This document shows positions 1 through 10,426 of a DNA stretch of 64,000 nt, piece after piece. Under the pieces are notes generated by a model that made no database searches, was not told the DNA's origin, and saw nothing but the letters and a program-made list of their open reading frames with translations. The first letter of the stretch is position 1; each line of letters opens with the position of its first letter. The position numbers and the translations under genes are program-made. The DNA lies in NCBI GenBank assembly GCA_937919925.1, contig CALFOT010000011.1:25743-89742 (forward strand), written 5' to 3'. This stretch comes from an uncultured bacterium. GTDB taxonomy: Bacteria; Planctomycetota; UBA1135.

Positions 1-384
1 CTCACGTTCCTGCAACAAAGCCTCCAATAAAAATGGCGCCGTACCAATGCGTTGGCGTGCGACTGCAACGGCTGCTTCACCGACGGCCGGCAACAAAGCC
101 ATCTGCACCTTGCTGGCTAAGCGACACAACGCCGCCCAACCTGCGGCATCCAAGGCCAACACCTGAGCACTAACCCCTTCCACCAACAAACGCATGCCCA
201 ACAGTGGTTTGATGCCTTGCGCCACACATGCCTTTTGAAAAGGTACTGCCCCCCACAATCCATTGAGATCGGCCATACCCAGAGCGTCAATATTGCCTGC
301 CGCTGCACAAGCAGCCAACTCTTCGACCCGCGATGCGCCCCAATGGAACGACCAAGGCGTTGCTACAGAGAGTTGCGCAACCAC
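1..384 (-). CDS. DnaE-type DNA polymerase III alpha, N-terminal PHP region only (runs off the left edge); PHP metal ligands degenerate
   Basis: Own reverse-strand translation from GTG at 384: VVAQLSVATPWSFHWGASRVEELAACAAAGNIDALGMADLNGLWGAVPFQKACVAQGIKPLLGMRLLVEGVSAQVLALDAAGWAALCRLAS, matching the DnaE PHP pattern (GASRxEEL, AVxFxKAC, GIKPxLG, DAAGxxxLCRL). Frame stays open to position 1. Overlaps the dinB 3' end. Confidence 0.8.
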   Translation of the reverse strand, partial: MVAQLSVATPWSFHWGASRVEELAACAAAGNIDALGMADLNGLWGAVPFQKACVAQGIKPLLGMRLLVEGVSAQVLALDAAGWAALCRLASKVQMALLPAVGEAAVAVARQRIGTAPFLLEALLQERE

Positions 385-1556
385 AAGCGATCCCCGCTTT
401 GTACCGACTGCTCACCGTATTTTTTGCGGATTTTATCCTGCACCGCAATACGTTCCCGTTGCACCACACGTTCTTTTTCAAACAGACCGCCTTGCCAAAA
501 ACCACGCTCTAAACCCGTAAAGCGCACGCCCAACAAACGCACCAGAGTGCGCCGTTTCAGCATGCGGTCTAGCTGCTGTTGCGCGACCTCCCACCATTCC
601 AAATCATGGTCACTCGGTGCTGGCAAAGTAAAATCACGCGTTTCGGTGACAAAATCGGCATAGCGCACTTTCACACTTAAGGTGCGCGCTAAAAAACCCT
701 CGGCGCGCAACTCTACGCAGGCCTTTTCGAGTAACTTTTGCAAGCGCCCGCGCAACACTTTGAGATCATCAAGATCTTCTGCAAAAGTGCGTTCATGCCC
801 CAGCGACTTACGTTCGGGGCGCTCCCAAGGCGGGCAAACAGGGGTTTCATCCACCCCGCGCGCGCGCCGCTGCATGGATGCACCATAACTTCCAAACACT
901 TCTTCTAGGAACCAGCCTGCAGTGCTGGCCAAAACCCCAAGTTGATCAATGTGGAAATCGCGCAACCGTTTGGCCGTCACCGGCCCAATGCCCGGCATCA
1001 CCTTCACCGGTAAAGGCGCAAAAAAACGCGGCTCCTGGCCAGGCCGGACATCGAATAAACCACACGGTTTGGCGAAACCCGAAGCCACTTTACTCACCAA
1101 ACGATTACTCGAAATACCAATGGTAAGATCCAACCGTAAACGCTCTTTGACCTCGCGACGCATCGAATCGGCCGCATCCAACGCATTGCCAAACAAATGA
1201 TGAGTGCCACTCAGATCCAAATAGGCCTCATCGACCGAGACTTTCTCAACGAGCGGAGTATAGTTGCCAATCAACTCAAAAACCGCCTTGGAAGCACGAC
1301 TATACATACCATGGCTGCCACCAACGCGAATCAAATCTGGGCATAAACGGAATGCTTGGCCCATTGGCATGGCCGAATGTACACCAAACTGGCGCGCCTC
1401 ATAAGAGGCTGCCGCCACCACGCCACGTGTTTCAGGTGAGCCGCCGACGACCACTGGCCGCCCATATAAACGCGGATCCAAAACCCTTTCTACCGACACG
1501 AAGAAGGCATCTAAATCCACGTGCAAAATTGAGCGCCCGTGGTTGGAAATATTCAC
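363..1556 (-). CDS. dinB: Y-family DNA polymerase IV (catalytic residues intact)
   Basis: ILHVDLDAFFVSVE, SVDEAYLDLSGT, GIGISSNRLVSKVASGFAKP-like and GIGPVTAKRL motifs; QGGLF resembles a clamp-binding QxxLF motif. GTG start overlaps the upstream stop. Confidence 0.95.
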   Translation of the reverse strand: MNISNHGRSILHVDLDAFFVSVERVLDPRLYGRPVVVGGSPETRGVVAAASYEARQFGVHSAMPMGQAFRLCPDLIRVGGSHGMYSRASKAVFELIGNYTPLVEKVSVDEAYLDLSGTHHLFGNALDAADSMRREVKERLRLDLTIGISSNRLVSKVASGFAKPCGLFDVRPGQEPRFFAPLPVKVMPGIGPVTAKRLRDFHIDQLGVLASTAGWFLEEVFGSYGASMQRRARGVDETPVCPPWERPERKSLGHERTFAEDLDDLKVLRGRLQKLLEKACVELRAEGFLARTLSVKVRYADFVTETRDFTLPAPSDHDLEWWEVAQQQLDRMLKRRTLVRLLGVRFTGLERGFWQGGLFEKERVVQRERIAVQDKIRKKYGEQSVQSGDRLWLRNSL

Positions 1557-1903
1557 GCCCCTTGATGGCCACTACCGAACTGACGTAAACGCCCAACCAC
1601 CACGCCCCGCACCTTGGCCGGCTGTTCATCCGATGGCGGCGGAAAACCACCGACGCCCTTAAAAGACAAGTCTTCCTGCACGCGCGCCAAAGCCAGCGTG
1701 CGCGCGAGGCCAGTCCACCACACAACCAAATCGCCAACTTCTACATCCACGCCCTCGGTGATTGCGAAAACATCGCCATCTTGAAGGTTTTCATCATCTG
1801 CGACGGCAACCCCGCGCAGGGCTAAGAAAAAGGTGTTCTTACGGTTGGCGAATTGCCCCGCCTGACCATCCATTTTGACTTCTTCTAACATGACTGCGCT
1901 CAT
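1553..1903 (-). CDS. Small S24/LexA/UmuD-fold protein lacking the catalytic Ser and Lys
   Basis: FFLALRGVAVADDENLQDGDVFAITEGVDVEVGDLVVWW...LALARV...VRGVVVGRLRQFG aligns by eye with LexA FALRVAGDSMIDAGILDGDLLLVQQ..GEIVVA...ATVKRY...LAGRVVGVMR: GDSM->GVAV, TVKR->LALAR. Good SD (AAAGGAGAG) upstream. Confidence 0.75.
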   Translation of the reverse strand: MSAVMLEEVKMDGQAGQFANRKNTFFLALRGVAVADDENLQDGDVFAITEGVDVEVGDLVVWWTGLARTLALARVQEDLSFKGVGGFPPPSDEQPAKVRGVVVGRLRQFGSGHQGA

Positions 1904-1929
1904 TTTTTTTTACTCTCCTTTGCCTCTCT

Positions 1930-2547
1930 TTATGCCCACCATCGCATCACGCCGACCACCCGGCCGGCCAGACTGAAATGATCCTCACGCCGCACCACAA
2001 TATCTTCCATGTTGGCATTTTCTGGCCGCAACACCACAAAATCCCGCTGCGGTAAATAACGCTTTACCGTGGCTTCCATAGCTTCGCCTTCGCCGATCAA
2101 AGCCACAACAATTTCACCGCTATTGGCGCTACTTGCCTGCTGCACAAGCAGTAAATCCCCATCCAAGATGCCGGCGTCGATCATCGAATCTCCCGCCACG
2201 CGCAGCGCAAAATCAGCCGCACTGCCAGCCAGGCGCGGCAAGCTCCCCTGGTGGTTTTCGAGCGCCAAAATGGGCAAACCCGCAGCAACCTGGCCCAAAA
2301 TAGGGATAGTTTCTGCCGAACTATGGCCGATATTTGTAGTGCAAAGATGAATGGACCGCGAAGAACGCCCCAATTTCAGATAACCCTTACGCTCCAGCGC
2401 CCGAAGATGAAAATCTGCGGTTTGCGGGCTTACACCAAGGCTAACTCCAAGCTCGGCACGCGTGGGCGGACGCCCCAAAGCTGCCAAAACTTGCTGGAGA
2501 GCCGCGAGTGCGGCGCGTTGGCGCGGACTCAGCGGTTCCAGATTCAT
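1930..2547 (-). CDS. lexA: LexA repressor (start set at MNLEPLSPRQRAAL; ORF track start at 2640 is probably too long)
   Basis: N-terminal wHTH (PTRAELGVSLGVSPQTADFHLRALERKGYL), VAAGLP cleavage site, GDSM serine and TVKR lysine. Confidence 0.93.
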   Translation of the reverse strand: MNLEPLSPRQRAALAALQQVLAALGRPPTRAELGVSLGVSPQTADFHLRALERKGYLKLGRSSRSIHLCTTNIGHSSAETIPILGQVAAGLPILALENHQGSLPRLAGSAADFALRVAGDSMIDAGILDGDLLLVQQASSANSGEIVVALIGEGEAMEATVKRYLPQRDFVVLRPENANMEDIVVRREDHFSLAGRVVGVMRWWA

Positions 2548-2577
2548 GAGGTGGGCAGACACAGCCATCTCGGCGAG

Positions 2578-2597
2578 TATATGACAAATATCATATA
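2578..2597. promoter_or_regulatory. Perfect palindrome TATATGA-N6-TCATATA, candidate LexA operator
   Basis: TATATGACAAATATCATATA read directly; about 30 nt upstream of the proposed lexA start and about 50 nt upstream of the divergent gene at 2649. Confidence 0.6.
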
Positions 2598-2648: not shown

Positions 2649-5600
2649 ATGACACTCATGCAAACGCCTGTACGGCTTGTACTTTTGGCACTGCTCGGCT
2701 CCTGCGCCAGCGCCACTTCCACAGCTCCGTCTGAAACTCCTCGTGGTGATCACGGTAGTACTTTCACCGACGTAGTCGATCAACCCGCGCAAGAACCTGC
2801 GCCCGCCATCCAGGAGCCCACAGCTGGCCCACTGCAAGAGCCCGTCGGCAGCACCAAGCCGCTGACAACAGCGCCACCGCCGCCGACTGAAGCGGATGCC
2901 GCCCAGCTCTACCTCAATGGCGATGTGCCCGCAGCACTTAAACTCTATACGCAGTTGATGGCGCGCACGATTACCGATTTACGCACAGCAGAGGCGCCGA
3001 CTCAACCGAACACCGCAGCCGACCCCATCGCTGCCGCACGTCTACGCGCCGAACTGGAGTGGCTCTTGGTGAGTTTCCGCAAAGCCGCCAAAATGAGCGG
3101 ACACGACGGACTATGTCGGGAGCTACTCGGCTCGCTCGCCATCAACGAAAGCGATGGCAACGTGTGGGCACTCACCCGTTGGTGCTACCCGCAAGCGGCG
3201 CAGGATCTCAGCAAACTCACCAACTGGCAGTTCGTCGGCCCGTTTGATAACGAACGTGGCGTGGCTCTTGATCGGCAGCTCGCACCCGAGACCGATCCCA
3301 ATAGCCTGACTGCTTTCGCTGGCAAAGTACGCCCGGTTGCTTGGCGTACCACACCGCCAACGTCGGCCGCCGATGGTGTGCTTGATTTTTCGCTGCTACT
3401 CACACCGGCGGAACAAACGGCTGTGATGCTGCGTACGTGGGTGAACTCCGCTATCGACCAAGACGCGTTCTTGATGCTGGGTATCGCCGGTGAAGCACGC
3501 GTGTGGCACGATGGCACCACGGTGCTGCATGCTGGCGGTGAACATGAGTTACATTTTGATGCGCTTGCTGCGCCACTCAAATTGCACGCCGGTTGGAATG
3601 AGATTGCCATGAAACTTGGCAGTCGTGATCATGCGCCGCGTTTCGAAGCGCGCTTGATTGACGCCGTAACCGGCCGCGCATTGCACCTCGAAGACAACTC
3701 CACTCCACCGGCCACGCTGCTGCCGCAAATCCTCAGCGCCGCGGATCCACAAAAAGTGATTTTGGCGCCTCCTGGAGCTATCGCCTATTACTTGGCGACC
3801 ACTTATGTTGCGCCCGAAAACGCAGAGGCTTACCATCGCTTGGGCGTTTTACAGGATTGGTACAAAACCGCGCCGAAATCGATGTTTCCAGGCCGCGAAG
3901 ACCTACGTACTGCTGTAGAACTGGCACCAACAGAACTACGCTATCGCGTCGATTACGCCACCGCGTTGTTCCCTGGAAAGGATATCGATGCCGCAGAAGC
4001 GGACCTAAATCCGTGGCTCCAACAAGCCCAATTGATTCTGGAGCAAGAGCCCGGCCAAGTGTTTACCAACTTGCAGCGCGTGATGGCGGTACTGCATTAC
4101 CAGCACATTGAAAATTTGGGGTTGGAGGCTATCGCCCGTTTAGAAGCCGCCGGTCATGAGGAACCGTGGCTGCTTCGTGCTAAGGCTGCTGTCTACGCTG
4201 CCTTTGACCACGATGACCTTGCGCATGCAACACAAATGCGCATTCTTGAGCATCCGCAGATTGATCAGTACCCAACGATTCAGCTGACCGCGGCACGCCA
4301 AGCGCTACGCCGAGGCAGCCCAGAGCTATTGGCAATCTTGCAGAAAACTTTCGCGGCGACCGACAACAACTACGCTTTCGCCAGCATCGTTGAGTGGCAG
4401 CGTCAACAACGCGCACAGTTTGATGCCACACTTGAGTTAAACGAACTCGAACAACTGATGGCGCGCCAGCCATGGAGTTCCGCAACCTTGCGTGACTGCG
4501 CCAAACGTTTCCAGTCGCAGGGTAATCTTGAGGTGGCGTTTGCATTGCTCGATCGCGCGCTAATGTTGAAGCCAGAGTCAGCTGCAAATTTGGCCTTGCT
4601 GGCGCGCCTGCATCTTGCCGCTGGGCAAATCGAAGAAACGATCATTGCGCTAGAGCAAGAGCTCAATATCGATTTTACCAACGAAGATGAGCAACGCTTA
4701 CTGGACCACCTCCAGTCGTTGGATGGTGCCACTTTTGATGCGCCTTATCACGAAAGTTTGGCTGCCATTTTGGAGCGCAACAACACTTCTGATGGCAACT
4801 TGGCCAGCGTCGATTACAGCCACGAATACCTGCTCTACCGCAGTGTGGTGCGCGTCAATCCAGACAGCACGGCTAGCCGCTACTATCGTAAAGTCATGCG
4901 CGTGTTGAACGTCAACGGCGTGCGCGAGCTAGATGAAATTACATTCCCATTCCGTTGGGGCGATGAAGATCTGCGCGTGCTCACCGTGAATGTCTTGCAC
5001 CCGGATGGCAGCACCGAAACCGCAAAAACCAACCGTGGTTGGCGCGCAAGCCAAGTGGATTTGCCACGCCTTCAAGTGGGCGACATCATCGATTTAGAGT
5101 GGAAAATCAGCGATCTCCACACCACCTACTTTGGCAAATACTTCGCCATTGATCACTCTATGACAGCAGATCGTTCGGTACCCACACACGAAAGCCAGTT
5201 GGTGCTTTTAGTGCCGGATGAACTGCCTTTGGAGTTCCATACGATTCGTTTGGAAGGCGCGCAAGCGGAAGTTGGCGCAACGGCTGCTTTTGGCACCAGC
5301 CATACTTGGACGGTGCACGATTTAGCACCCCAGCGGATTGAAAATTTGATGCCCCACGCCGAAGAAACAGTGGCGCGCGTGCAAGCTAGCTCCTACACCT
5401 CGTGGGATGATTTTGGCGCTTGGTGGTGGAACTTAATTGATGCCGGCATCACCGTATCTCCTGAGATGAAAACCAAAGTTGCCCAACTCACCGCAGACAA
5501 GCATGATCTGCGTGAACAGGTGGCGGCAATCTATGGGTTTGTTGCGAATGACATTCGTTACAACGCTTGGGAGTTCGGCGTACATGGTTATCAACCTTAC

Positions 5601-6668
5601 ACCGCGCCCGTCATCTTCAGCCGCCAATTTGGCGACTGCAAAGACAAATCCATTCTCCTGCGCGCCATGCTTTCGGAAATCGGCGTAGAAGCTTATCCAG
5701 TGCTCCTCTTGCGCTCGGCGGATGGTCGGCACGGTGGACGACGGCATGAAGAAGACCTGAGTTTGGCAATGGTCGATCACTTCAACCACTGCATCGCTTA
5801 CATTCCGGCGCAACAAGATTTGCCGGCAATGTTTGTTGACGGCACTGCACGCTTGCATCCGCTGGATGTGCTGCCATACGATGACCGCGGCGCGCAAGTG
5901 CTGGTGGTAAAGCCCGAGGGCATTGAACGCGTGCGTATCCCCTTCTCGGAGGCCGCCGACAACACCCGCGCCGAGCACTACACGATTTCCTATGAAAGCA
6001 ACGGCAGTGCTGCTGTCGAAATGTTTCTCACCCCGCAAGGCCGCTGGGATCCAACCTACCGCAATGCTTTTGCTGGTGGTGATCAAAAGCGTAAAGAAAC
6101 GGTCGAGAACATGTTGTCGGCCCAACTTGGTCCGCTGGATGGCGATGTGACTTACGACATTCAAGATGTGGAGCAACTCAACAACCCGCTGCGTCTGCTG
6201 TTCGGCGCCAAAGCCACTAGCCTGGCGCGCGTGGTTGATGGTCACCTAGAAATCCCGGCGATGCTGAACCCGCTCAATCTGCTGCAAAACACTGCCGCCG
6301 AAGCAGAACGTACTACCGATTTGCTGTTGGATAGCCCTTGGGTCCGCGCGATCACCATCGATGTTGAACTCCCTGAAGGTTGGAACATGGATGTACTGCC
6401 CGCGGCGATTGACGTCAGTAATCACGACGCCAGCTACCAGTGGAATGTGGTACGCAGCAAAACTGGCCTGCGCATTAGCGAACGTTATGCCCTGCTCACC
6501 CACCGCATCCCGGTGGCGCGTTACCCAGCTTTCCGCGCACTGTGCCGCGTCATCGATAACAGCCAAGACCGCTACTTGGAAGTAACTGCTTCACTGCCCC
6601 CGGAGACGGAAGAAACCCTCCAAGCTGTCCCTGTAGAAGCCTCCGTAAAAGATAAGGAGGACAAGTAA
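2649..6668 (+). CDS. Secreted/lipoprotein DUF3857 + transglutaminase-like protein with TPR-like middle
   Basis: Lipoprotein-like N-terminus (LVLLALLGSCAS); SRQFGDCKDKSILLRAML, DHFNHCIAY and FVDGTA fit transglutaminase Cys/His/Asp. Confidence 0.85.
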   Translation: MTLMQTPVRLVLLALLGSCASATSTAPSETPRGDHGSTFTDVVDQPAQEPAPAIQEPTAGPLQEPVGSTKPLTTAPPPPTEADAAQLYLNGDVPAALKLYTQLMARTITDLRTAEAPTQPNTAADPIAAARLRAELEWLLVSFRKAAKMSGHDGLCRELLGSLAINESDGNVWALTRWCYPQAAQDLSKLTNWQFVGPFDNERGVALDRQLAPETDPNSLTAFAGKVRPVAWRTTPPTSAADGVLDFSLLLTPAEQTAVMLRTWVNSAIDQDAFLMLGIAGEARVWHDGTTVLHAGGEHELHFDALAAPLKLHAGWNEIAMKLGSRDHAPRFEARLIDAVTGRALHLEDNSTPPATLLPQILSAADPQKVILAPPGAIAYYLATTYVAPENAEAYHRLGVLQDWYKTAPKSMFPGREDLRTAVELAPTELRYRVDYATALFPGKDIDAAEADLNPWLQQAQLILEQEPGQVFTNLQRVMAVLHYQHIENLGLEAIARLEAAGHEEPWLLRAKAAVYAAFDHDDLAHATQMRILEHPQIDQYPTIQLTAARQALRRGSPELLAILQKTFAATDNNYAFASIVEWQRQQRAQFDATLELNELEQLMARQPWSSATLRDCAKRFQSQGNLEVAFALLDRALMLKPESAANLALLARLHLAAGQIEETIIALEQELNIDFTNEDEQRLLDHLQSLDGATFDAPYHESLAAILERNNTSDGNLASVDYSHEYLLYRSVVRVNPDSTASRYYRKVMRVLNVNGVRELDEITFPFRWGDEDLRVLTVNVLHPDGSTETAKTNRGWRASQVDLPRLQVGDIIDLEWKISDLHTTYFGKYFAIDHSMTADRSVPTHESQLVLLVPDELPLEFHTIRLEGAQAEVGATAAFGTSHTWTVHDLAPQRIENLMPHAEETVARVQASSYTSWDDFGAWWWNLIDAGITVSPEMKTKVAQLTADKHDLREQVAAIYGFVANDIRYNAWEFGVHGYQPYTAPVIFSRQFGDCKDKSILLRAMLSEIGVEAYPVLLLRSADGRHGGRRHEEDLSLAMVDHFNHCIAYIPAQQDLPAMFVDGTARLHPLDVLPYDDRGAQVLVVKPEGIERVRIPFSEAADNTRAEHYTISYESNGSAAVEMFLTPQGRWDPTYRNAFAGGDQKRKETVENMLSAQLGPLDGDVTYDIQDVEQLNNPLRLLFGAKATSLARVVDGHLEIPAMLNPLNLLQNTAAEAERTTDLLLDSPWVRAITIDVELPEGWNMDVLPAAIDVSNHDASYQWNVVRSKTGLRISERYALLTHRIPVARYPAFRALCRVIDNSQDRYLEVTASLPPETEETLQAVPVEASVKDKEDK

Positions 6669-9600
6669 TGATTACCATTCTCGCCATTTCCACACTGCTG
6701 CTTGCTAGCCCAGCCGCAACTCTGCAAACAGCGCAAGTTTCTACCTCCAAGCTCAGCTCGGAATTAATTGTCGGCCACCCGGGTTTGTTCAACGGTGACG
6801 TGGATAGCGTGCGCAACGATCTGCTCGAAGCCATGCTCAACGATCGGTCGTCGCCGCTGCTTGGCGCCGCCGCCCATCAAGCTCTGTTGCTAAGCGAATA
6901 TTGTTCAACCAATATGGATCCAACTCTGTTGGCGCAGTTGATTGAAGGCGTCGATAACGGCGCCGCATCGGCCGACATTCGTAGCCTTTATATACAGGAG
7001 TTGCAACGCAGCCGCTTCCAAGATATCTCGCCCTTGCAGCTGCCACAGCGCCCACCACACCAGAATGATTTGTTCGATCACTGGTTCACCAATTGGCGTG
7101 TACTGCAGCCATGGGGCGAACTGGATCACCCTACCCCAATGCGCGCAGCCACCATCCCGCCCGATCCGCGGCAGCTGCAAGTGGTGGATCCGGCGAATGG
7201 CCAAACCCGCACTTGGCAAACTCTTACCCGCACCTCCAACCGCACTTGGATTCGGCCAGATAACCTAGCTTGGCAAAATGTCGGCTGTGGTTATGCCGCA
7301 CTTTGGGTGCGCGCTGAACCGCAAGTTGCCATGCTCGAACTGCATGCCGATGAAGCCATGCGTGCGTGGTGGAACGGCATGCCCACTTTCGAAGCTCTGC
7401 GTGAAGGTTTGCCCGAACGCAAAGACACCTTCCAAGCTTATGTGAATGTACAAGCTGGTTGGAACTTGCTGTTGGTCCAGTACGAAAACGGTCAGGACCT
7501 GTTTCTCGGCGGCCGCTTGTTGACGCGCGATGGCCGCTTGTTGCCATTCTATGAGTGGGAAGACGCAACCAGCGCCCCGGAGTTGCCTGCAGTGCCAATG
7601 CCTGCTGAAATTTTAGATTTGGCCTATTGGCAGCCGCTTGGCAATGATCCTTGGGATGTGATTTTGCGTTGCGCTTTAGCCTTGCATCACAATCGTGCCG
7701 ACTTGGCACTGGCGACTCCAGAACCACCGGCTATGAGCAACCAGCAAATGGCTGCATGGCTGAATTGGCAGCATCATGCTTACCGTCAGGCCTACCACTT
7801 ATCACCTTCTGTAGTGCGCAATCGCTTACTCGAAATTGAAGCGCGCAGTAGTGAATTAGCCTGCAATGATGTCGGCTTGGAACTCTTCGCAGCCGCTCGT
7901 TTGCAAGAAGAAGATAAACGAGAAGAAGCACTTACACTGACCCGTGCGCTCGTCGCAGCACACCCCGATATTTACGCTGCCCGTAGGCTAGAAGCGGCCA
8001 TTCTGCTCGAAATCGACCGCAGCGGCACTTTAGCCCAACCGGTGATTGAAGCGATAGCCGCCAGTTTTCCTCAAGCCGATTGGCCTTTGGAACAACTGGA
8101 GTCTTTTGCCACGGACCACGGCGACCGCGCGCGTGCTTTATTATACGCCAAAGCGCGCTTGACGACGAACACCGAAGGTGGCTGGAATCTGATTGATTTG
8201 TTACTCGAAAGCAGCGATCCCGAGCAAATTCAACTTGCTCATGATTTATTCGCTCGCGCCGCCTTCGAGGAGCCCGATCATTACAGCACCAAGCGCATAC
8301 AGCGCCAGCTGTGGCACATTGATGGCAAGCAAGATAAAGTGTTGGCGGAGTTGCGCGCCGAGGTCGTGCGCACGCCCAACTTTATCGATGCCTACCGCCG
8401 CTTGGCCGAGTATCAAATTCGTCATGGCGAGTTAGCCGCAGCCACCCAGGCCTACGAAACGATTTTGAATCTTGACCCAAGTAATGAACAGGCTTTACGA
8501 ACTCTAAAGGTGCTTGCGAACCAAGATGACGCCGCCGAATTTTTCGCCACTTTTGGTCCGGATGTCGCGGCGCAGTTGGCCCAGCGGCAAAGCATTGCTG
8601 GCGACAACTCCACCGCCATGCTGCTCGATAGTGGCATGGTTTACATGCTCGCCGACGGAGGCTTGATTTACCGCGTTCACAATCTCGATTTAGCCCTCGA
8701 CCGCAATGGCACCGAAGTTCTGCATGAAATGGGCGTGGTTGGCTCTCCGCAGCTAGCACGCATCATCACCAGTGATGGTGGGATTTTGGAACCCCACCAG
8801 GTTAATGATAGCTTTGTGATGCCTTCGCTTGATCCGGGTGATGTCATTGAAACCGTATACGACCGCTACATTCCCGGTTTATTTGGACTGGCTGCAAACC
8901 CTGGTATATGGAACTTTTCCTCCTTCGAACAACCGTTTGCGTTGAGTCGCTGGGTTATTTTTGTACCGAATGGTGCGCCAGGATTTTTGCGCGAACATAA
9001 TTTTGATGGTGGTCATGAGGTGCTTGATTGGAAGAATGGCAAAGTTCATATTTTCAATCGCGCCGAAAATGCCCGCCTGGAACCTGAGGTTCTGATGCCG
9101 TCGGAAATGGAACTCCTGCCGTGGGTTGCTTTTGGCAATGATACTCCCCTGGAACGGGTGGCAGAAAAATGGCGCACCTACTTCCTGTGGCAAACGTCGC
9201 TCCCCGCCGATACCGAACTTGAGCTGCGCACCTTCCTGGCAACCCTCGATCAATCGGGAAGCAATCTTGAAAAAGCACAACGTATTTACGCGGCCGTCAC
9301 CCAACTGATTTTGGATTTCAATGATGACGGGAACTTGGTGGATGTCTGGACTCTCAAGCGTGGCAACCCCACCTTCTTGTTGTCCGCTCTGTACCGTCTG
9401 GCCGGCATCCCCCATGAGTGGTCTTTGCTGCAAACGAGTGCACCGGAACTGAAGGAAAATCCTCTCACCCCCTTCACCAGCGGCGCCGACTTCGTCTACC
9501 CAGCTCTGCGCGTTGCGGAAGCGGGCGCCGAGCCTGTGTGGATGTTGTTGTTGACGCGCGGCACACCCTTTGGCGAATTGAGCCCCGCCCTGCTTGGTGC

Positions 9601-10426
9601 TCCCGCCATGGTGTTGGAGCCCCAAGGCTACCGCCTTGAGGAAGTTTCGCGCGACGGATTAAATGAGTTGTGGGATATGGATCTCCACATTGCTTACGCC
9701 ATCAAAGCCGATGATTCTGCTGCCGCCATCGGCAAACTCACCATGGGTGGCGTGCAAGGTGCCGCAATCCGCGAAGCTCTCGCGCAACTGTCGCCGCAAG
9801 AAATCGATCAAGCCTTACGTCAGCTCTCTGCGCAAATGGTTAAAGGGTTGAATTTGCGAACCGCGCAAGTTAGCGATATGGAAATCACCGGTGGACCATT
9901 GGTGATTGACTTTGACGGCGTCATCCCTGAATTTGTGCAGCGCCGTGAAAACAGCAATGGCGCGCGTTTGCGCATCCCGGAACTTGGCCTAGCAGATGGG
10001 CTCGGGCCAGCCGAGCGCCAGTACAACTTCGTGATGCGTGCGGCGCAGCGTGTCCGCACCAGCGTACAACTGGATACTGGCAGCGGCTGGACTCTAGAGT
10101 ACGGTCCGGAAAACAGTAGTGAAATCCGTGATGGCTTCCGCTATGACTTCGCCGTGGAGAAAGATGCGCAACACCTCTTGGTGAGGCGCACTCTGGAAAT
10201 GCGCGGTACCGCAATCTCGGCTGCGGATTTCCCATCTTTCATCGCCACAATGAAAGCATTGGAAAATCAAGAAACGCGCGCAGTTCGCCTCACCGAAGTT
10301 GTGGGTGAAGAGGTGCTCGAACCAGCTCTTGAGGAAGCTGTGCTTGAGGAAGCTCCTCTTGAGGAAGCTGTGCTTGAGAATACGGTTGGGAATGAAGATC
10401 CCGAAACCGAAACTCAAGAACTGTAA
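6668..10426 (+). CDS. Second giant secreted DUF3857-like protein with degenerate transglutaminase region
   Basis: Signal peptide; same layout as the upstream gene; start overlaps the upstream stop (TAATG) with SD AAGGAGGA. Catalytic Cys region reads KRGNPTFLLSALYRLAGIPHEWSLL. Confidence 0.75.
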   Translation: MITILAISTLLLASPAATLQTAQVSTSKLSSELIVGHPGLFNGDVDSVRNDLLEAMLNDRSSPLLGAAAHQALLLSEYCSTNMDPTLLAQLIEGVDNGAASADIRSLYIQELQRSRFQDISPLQLPQRPPHQNDLFDHWFTNWRVLQPWGELDHPTPMRAATIPPDPRQLQVVDPANGQTRTWQTLTRTSNRTWIRPDNLAWQNVGCGYAALWVRAEPQVAMLELHADEAMRAWWNGMPTFEALREGLPERKDTFQAYVNVQAGWNLLLVQYENGQDLFLGGRLLTRDGRLLPFYEWEDATSAPELPAVPMPAEILDLAYWQPLGNDPWDVILRCALALHHNRADLALATPEPPAMSNQQMAAWLNWQHHAYRQAYHLSPSVVRNRLLEIEARSSELACNDVGLELFAAARLQEEDKREEALTLTRALVAAHPDIYAARRLEAAILLEIDRSGTLAQPVIEAIAASFPQADWPLEQLESFATDHGDRARALLYAKARLTTNTEGGWNLIDLLLESSDPEQIQLAHDLFARAAFEEPDHYSTKRIQRQLWHIDGKQDKVLAELRAEVVRTPNFIDAYRRLAEYQIRHGELAAATQAYETILNLDPSNEQALRTLKVLANQDDAAEFFATFGPDVAAQLAQRQSIAGDNSTAMLLDSGMVYMLADGGLIYRVHNLDLALDRNGTEVLHEMGVVGSPQLARIITSDGGILEPHQVNDSFVMPSLDPGDVIETVYDRYIPGLFGLAANPGIWNFSSFEQPFALSRWVIFVPNGAPGFLREHNFDGGHEVLDWKNGKVHIFNRAENARLEPEVLMPSEMELLPWVAFGNDTPLERVAEKWRTYFLWQTSLPADTELELRTFLATLDQSGSNLEKAQRIYAAVTQLILDFNDDGNLVDVWTLKRGNPTFLLSALYRLAGIPHEWSLLQTSAPELKENPLTPFTSGADFVYPALRVAEAGAEPVWMLLLTRGTPFGELSPALLGAPAMVLEPQGYRLEEVSRDGLNELWDMDLHIAYAIKADDSAAAIGKLTMGGVQGAAIREALAQLSPQEIDQALRQLSAQMVKGLNLRTAQVSDMEITGGPLVIDFDGVIPEFVQRRENSNGARLRIPELGLADGLGPAERQYNFVMRAAQRVRTSVQLDTGSGWTLEYGPENSSEIRDGFRYDFAVEKDAQHLLVRRTLEMRGTAISAADFPSFIATMKALENQETRAVRLTEVVGEEVLEPALEEAVLEEAPLEEAVLENTVGNEDPETETQEL
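10328..10380 (+). repeat. 15-bp tandem repeat CTTGAGGAAGCT(GTG/CCT), three copies plus a partial, coding LEEAx repeats
   Basis: Direct reading: CTTGAGGAAGCTGTG CTTGAGGAAGCTCCT CTTGAGGAAGCTGTG CTTGAGAA. Confidence 0.9.

Follow-up and report, generated by a model that had tools for sequence, protein, structure and literature searches.

An S24-fold protein without its catalytic dyad in a lexA-polY-dnaE cassette of an uncultured Planctomycetota family

We analyzed a window of 64,000 nucleotides from an uncultured bacterium (GTDB lineage Bacteria; Planctomycetota; UBA1135; assembly GCA_937919925.1, contig CALFOT010000011.1, positions 25,743 to 89,742; G000:C11:25743-89742 in our numbering), which carries at its start a lexA-linked polymerase cassette on the minus strand. 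The source genome comprises 2.9 Mb in 138 contigs and is 87% complete. The cassette encodes a dedicated LexA (LexA2), a 116-residue protein with the S24 fold that lacks both catalytic residues, a DinB-like Y-family DNA polymerase (PolY) with its active site kept, and a DnaE. We favor, at somewhat better than even confidence, the reading that LexA2 governs a regulon of its own, encoding a DnaE2B-PolY(-RecA) mutasome in which the small protein would be a dead UmuD'-like subunit, in effect cleaved from the outset. In its support we count the S24 fold, the dead dyad, the conserved gene order, the shared operator, the PolY motifs, the DnaE clade and the 4-bp overlap between the small gene and polY.

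The small protein (1553-1903, minus strand) gave E=0.17 against Pfam S24 when searched alone. An alignment of 22 homologues, all from one GTDB family, had a mean identity of 42% and 16 invariant columns; 12 of the 22 matched Pfam S24 individually (best E 5.6e-4), and no other family was matched consistently. Searching the 22-row profile against all PDB sequences returned LexA, UmuD and UmuD' as the 15 best matches (residues 22-107; E 6e-4 to 0.01), and an ImuA-like or RecA-like identity was rejected by this search. The AlphaFold2 model, computed as a single chain like all structure predictions here, had a mean predicted local distance difference test score (pLDDT) of 86 and a predicted template modeling score (pTM) of 0.77; its top Foldseek matches were UmuD' and then UmuD, lambda cI and LexA (prob 1.00, TM 0.56-0.58), with modest E-values (best 1.2e-3). 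Alignment of the small-protein profile by hhalign gave 97.9% (E 4e-13) against LexA-type S24 domains and 88.6% against the LexA2 of the cassette. The preliminary description of this stretch, made from the sequence alone, had proposed an S24/LexA fold for the small protein, and PDB profile, AlphaFold, Foldseek and hhalign results bear it out. An origin as a tandem duplicate of the adjoining lexA2 was unsupported, the domain being closer to LexA1-type S24 and its placement in the S24 tree ambiguous.

The position of the LexA catalytic Ser (in GDSM) holds a residue other than Ser in all 22 homologues (G-V/A/E/T-A...), that of the catalytic Lys is an invariant Ala73 (in ALAR, 22/22), and the cleavage loop is absent, with ~20 residues missing between the N-terminal segment and the core. 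Because Ser and Lys are replaced and the loop is missing, the protein is predicted to be an S24 domain incapable of self-cleavage. The ratio of nonsynonymous to synonymous substitution rates (dN/dS) was 0.09-0.23 within the genus and against the nearest genus, with dS saturated in several pairs; these estimates indicate a gene under purifying selection and not in decay. Together with conservation in 22 of the 26 genomes of one uncultured Planctomycetota family, they exclude a chance open reading frame. The same values bear on the possibility that the locus is an ordinary SOS polymerase operon whose small protein, umuD-like or derived from lexA, is a functionless passenger in decay; the lost catalytic residues and the loss of the gene in one genome (G010) would fit, but we judge this very improbable in view of the dN/dS range, the invariant positions shared by 22 sequences across many genera and the tight translational overlap. 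Gene position and size class equal those of Geobacter GSU0042 (PMC3765255, PMC6511836), which raised the identity of a standalone ImuB-C (DUF6504), as in the lexA-imuB-C-polY operons of Geobacter and some planctomycetes. However, ImuB-C families were matched by none of the 22 homologues, against 12 for S24, the PDB profile and Foldseek gave S24, and ImuB-C is reported to form another beta-barrel, one that has no relatives in the PDB (PMC12926913); this identity, to which we assign next to no probability, was rejected by the family-profile and fold results.

Along the minus strand the operator (2579-2596) is followed by lexA (1930-2568), the small gene, polY (363-1556) and dnaE (from 384). Consecutive genes are spaced by +26 bp (lexA/small), -4 bp (small/polY, where the stop of the small gene overlaps the GTG start of polY) and -22 bp (polY/dnaE, where polY overlaps the GTG start of dnaE), and because of these gaps lexA-small-polY-dnaE would likely be read as a single transcript. 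The dnaE gene is cut by the window edge after its first 128 codons (1-384) and reaches approximately position -2825 (~2.8 kb outside); the full 1069-residue protein was obtained from the same contig (L003:8918-12127). The earlier claim of a same-strand lexA cassette with overlapping or closely spaced boundaries thus stands, all four genes lying where it put them (on the minus strand), with two corrections: three genes, not four, follow lexA, and the operon is not contained in positions 1-2597 of the window. Divergently from lexA, two overlapping open reading frames of 1339 and 1252 residues occupy positions 2649-6668 and 6668-10426 on the plus strand, and a similar large divergent frame adjoins the cassette in L038, L042 and L044.

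Across independent assemblies, lexA, the small gene and polY are directly consecutive in 18 of 20 named loci; in L043 ~1.7 kb separates the small gene from polY, and in L051 polY lies elsewhere. The operon is conserved in relatives, and neither outcome named beforehand as refuting, a fold other than S24 or lack of conservation, came about. A related dnaE is present in 16 of the 26 family genomes. Outside the family, the small-protein profile found nothing of comparable length: five of its distant matches in other Planctomycetota families were checked (L068, L069, L072, L074 and L076) and proved to be full-length LexA, and most other distant frames were of LexA length and apparently LexA C-terminal domains. 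The single-sequence matches L029-L032 were weak, several in reversed frames, and were discarded. No copy of the small protein was found in phages or plasmids, and none of 20 polY loci sampled from sister families had lexA or the small protein adjacent.

The polY product matched PF00817 (6.8e-48) and PRK02406, DNA polymerase IV (307.7 bits, cut-off 256), and scored 256-317 bits against DinB models as against 85 bits for the UmuC model. As the preliminary description had noted, it keeps the catalytic motifs DLDAFF (1500-1517) and SVDEAYLD; an active-site check and a tree agree with this assignment, and in all family PolY the catalytic motifs are intact as far as the available sequence extends. 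Near its C-terminus lie a beta-clamp-binding-like motif, QGGLF (480-494, assigned from known clamp motifs), and a RecA-NT-like motif, IAVQDKIRKKYGEQSVQSG (393-449, by the definition in PMC6511836). In the family alignment nearly all PolY have a clamp-type motif, QxxL(F/L/W), and beyond it a RecA-NT-like motif, before which the PolY of G007 ends. No ImuB-C domain was found on polY. This is the only Y-family gene detected in G000 (one IMS match), and its catalytic motifs are intact; neither ImuB nor ImuA was found in this 87% complete genome, whose sole RecA-family match is RecA itself, and the operon contains no RecA-like gene.

The cassette DnaE keeps the polymerase motif PDxDxDF and has lost the metal motifs of its PHP domain (HLHVH to QLSVA, TDHG to ADLN, GCE to GMR). 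The preliminary description was right about the degenerate PHP domain, which does not distinguish this protein, being usual for DnaE2 (PMC3919608, PMC12926913). Profile scores were 634 bits for the PolIII-alpha model and 564 bits for the DnaE2 model, both below their cut-offs. In a tree of 36 proteins the DnaE falls, with strong support, outside DnaE1 and outside the imuA-imuB-linked DnaE2, by which its identity as an ordinary ImuC-type DnaE2 was rejected; its clade (100/99) holds plasmid DnaEs of the Bacteroidota Emticicia and Adhaeribacter, whose genes come after an active dinB, as well as one DnaE from a Desulfosarcina plasmid and one from a sister family. A group holding the Bacteroidota dinB-dnaE pairs is described as DnaE2B-PolY-RecA (PMC12926913), and we assign the window protein to the DnaE2B type provisionally and by proxy, through its grouping with Bacteroidota dinB-linked DnaE in our own tree. 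Two members of this branch stand in other settings. On the mobilizable Desulfosarcina ovata plasmid Do28_1 (L101, 2895-8670), the order is lexA, a DUF72 gene, a Y-family gene with lost catalytic motifs, and a dnaE whose product belongs to the branch of the window DnaE (39-42% identity), which makes this a further unusual LexA cassette; and in a sister family (L197; G043:C22, 2-4192) a Y-family gene with the altered motifs DIDAFL and SLDDLYAD directly precedes a same-branch dnaE.

LexA2 combines a winged-helix DNA-binding domain (PF01726, 1.3e-11) with an S24 domain (PF00717, 3.1e-25), scores 151.7 bits against TIGR00498 (cut-off 110.95), and retains in its sequence the AG cleavage site, the Ser of GDSM and the Lys of TVKR. 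Its putative operator, ATATGATATTTGTCATAT (2579-2596, minus strand), lies 11 bp upstream of the lexA start codon and is the sole copy in the window even at 3 mismatches; ATATGAN6TCATAT has only one site in G000 at up to 1 mismatch. A TATACT element stands just downstream, so placed that the operator overlaps the presumed promoter (-35/-10 assigned by eye); a strict promoter scan of 2400-2750 detected none. The motif TMTGATAWWTRTCATA recurs shortly upstream of lexA in every family cassette with upstream DNA present, in weaker form in G019 and G020. The relocated dnaE of G011, G013 and G018 has it upstream too, and the relocated polY-dnaE of G020 has a diverged form of it. Over the 26 genomes, sites at ≤1 mismatch fell before cassette lexA or relocated dnaE, with the exception of two in G018, and a reversed control pattern gave few matches. 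Its presence before the displaced dnaE and polY-dnaE is strong comparative evidence that the scattered lexA, dnaE and polY-dnaE genes still form one LexA2 regulon. The two exceptions (L151, C2:268929; L152, C14:24904) carry the same near-perfect LexA2 palindrome, CATGATATTTATCATA, each in an unrelated setting; they may belong to a repeated element and were left out of the regulon.

A second LexA (LexA1) was found in G000, G010 and G020. The direct-repeat box GTTMGGNTTTTGTTMG lies upstream of lexA1 (G000, G010) and of recA in at least 14 of 25 genomes, a lower bound set by crude calling of recA start codons; the shuffled control for this box gave 1.5%. No box of the GTTMGGNTTTTGTTMG type was found at the cassette and no LexA2 box upstream of recA (best match at least 5 mismatches), a pattern pointing to two coexisting LexA regulons. 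The box at L116, L118 and the recA loci L222-L246, GTTM-N7-GTTM, is alike to the alphaproteobacterial GTTC-N7-GTTC.

On the favored reading, LexA2 would bind the operator over its own promoter and repress its own operon as well as the relocated dnaE or polY-dnaE, and upon DNA damage RecA filaments would trigger LexA2 self-cleavage and expression of these genes. PolY would make two contacts, its QGGLF motif docking on the beta clamp and its RecA-NT-like C-tail on RecA. The dead S24 protein would resemble a UmuD' that is permanently in the "cleaved" state, a dimeric subunit keeping PolY in the complex. This subunit would need no activation step, because LexA2 induction would be the sole switch. 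DnaE2B, with no proofreading-type PHP site, may extend from lesions or bypass them together with PolY. Both DNA polymerases are probably error-prone; induction, complex formation, the partner of the subunit and the mutagenic outcome are what we infer, and the preliminary description had rightly put mutasome function no more strongly.

Several observations weigh against this reading. The window PolY resembles DinB rather than UmuC, and it has no established counterpart of the UmuC tail to which UmuD' binds. About 10 of the 26 genomes have no related dnaE, so that DnaE2B is not obligatory, and in G010 the order lexA-polY-dnaE occurs with no small gene, which is dispensable there. In G020 the small gene stays with lexA apart from polY-dnaE; in G008 and G018 it remains tightly spaced with lexA but is separated from polY by further DNA. 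These arrangements would also fit a LexA-linked role. This variation speaks to an alternative we consider unlikely though deserving of attention, that the dead S24 protein uses the shared C-terminal S24 strand to pair with LexA2, or to cap the LexA2 dimer surface, and so serves as a co-repressor or a feedback damper of SOS timing. The small gene always adjoins lexA2, even where polY has moved or is separated; its last strand, RGVVVGRLR, matches the LexA dimer strand and is among the most conserved parts; and DdrR, which partners UmuDAb in Acinetobacter, is an earlier case of an SOS repressor with a small partner protein (PMC11332147). G010 cuts both ways, its doing without the small protein being counted as keeping a LexA-directed role alive, whereas its retention of lexA2 with a perfect operator speaks against such a role. 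The S24 domain is, moreover, nearer to the LexA1 type than to LexA2 by the hhalign values given above, and most of its conserved new residues (DAEPGDLVVWW, LAR, GF.PP) are located away from the dimer strand, pointing to another kind of partner.

In a further alternative the small protein is a ligand of the RecA filament. The S24 domains of LexA, UmuD and cI bind in the groove of the RecA filament (8gms, 8gmt and 8gmu are among the structure matches), and a dead S24 protein would bind there unconsumed, a non-cleavable decoy against LexA1 and LexA2 that limits SOS or mutasome activation; the filament-contacting cleavage loop and active-site cleft are, however, shortened or changed, with the ~20 residues missing, and we find this doubtful. 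We give little credence to a combined scheme in which the protein is shared through the common S24 dimer surface, by LexA2 before damage and by PolY after LexA2 is destroyed. If it were true, loss of the repressor would itself free the manager of the polymerase, coupling derepression to mutasome assembly through an exchange of partners and with no UmuD self-cleavage.

The favored mutasome reading was set against known mutagenesis systems. UmuD' and YolD/YqjX are precedents for the pairing of a RecA-NT polymerase with a small beta-barrel subunit (PMC6511836). Escherichia coli Pol V (UmuD'2-UmuC-RecA) is alike in that a small S24 gene directly precedes the gene of a Y-family polymerase carrying both a RecA-NT and a clamp motif; its UmuD, however, loses the N-terminal arm through its own Ser-Lys site, of which the window protein has neither residue, and its polymerase is of the UmuC type, where the window has a DinB-like one with DnaE added. 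Bacillus subtilis YqjW-YqjX likewise joins a small barrel subunit to a RecA-NT polymerase (PMC6511836), but YolD is an SH3-like barrel and not S24, and that system has no DnaE. The Geobacter-type lexA-imuB-C-polY operon shares lexA, a small beta-rich protein and an active polY in the same order, and differs in that the window small protein is S24, not ImuB-C, and that dnaE follows in about half of the genomes.

From the ImuA-ImuB-DnaE2 cassette the window differs in lacking ImuA, an inactive ImuB and a DnaE of the ImuC (DnaE2A) clade; a putative LexA-type operator is conserved at all promoters of window-type cassettes. The locus is accordingly not such a cassette with its ImuA exchanged for an S24 protein, as had been suggested, the DnaE coming from a separate branch; the broader suggestion, that error-prone polymerases are here arranged in a cassette of another architecture, holds up. 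In Pseudomonas putida, lexA2 is co-transcribed with imuA-imuB-imuC and controls them (PMC5261740), which likewise places a second LexA within its own mutagenesis cassette, whereas the window has no ImuA or ImuB, a DnaE of the other branch, and an S24 protein with an active polymerase instead. The Bacteroidota DnaE2B-PolY-RecA group resembles the window in its active Y-family polymerase with a RecA-NT-like motif followed by a same-branch DnaE, in that ImuA and ImuB were not found (G000), and in a DNA-damage repressor with an S24 domain; the Bacteroidota pairs (L213, L214) have an SRAP gene nearby and no dead S24 protein, and the window adds, ahead of the pair, the dedicated LexA and the dead S24 protein.

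The component parts are thus of known kinds, and the pairing of DinB with DnaE is already published (PMC6511836, PMC8565304, PMC12926913); the unusual feature is that a dead S24 subunit occurs together with a LexA dedicated to the cassette. Among the published mutasome types, none described in the main text consulted joins DnaE2B to an active PolY and an S24 subunit. The literature searched, supplementary tables lying outside that search, gave no case of a DnaE2B-PolY operon that has its own LexA and a dead S24 subunit.

Natural losses and splits within the family are ready comparisons of which mutasome parts are needed: G010, which has no small gene; G003, in which dnaE was lost along with the normal polY tail; G011, G013 and G018, in which dnaE is located elsewhere; G020, with its separated polY-dnaE; and G007, which has neither a DnaE2B-type dnaE nor the RecA-NT tail of polY and carries both cassette types, a complete ordinary lexA-imuA-imuB-dnaE2 (L119/L252, C21:11500-18500) besides lexA-small-polY. 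If the small protein is indeed UmuD'-like, naturally dead and arm-less, it would demonstrate that the UmuD' scaffold may persist after the RecA-triggered cleavage switch has been given up, and transcription would then be the only control over the two polymerases.

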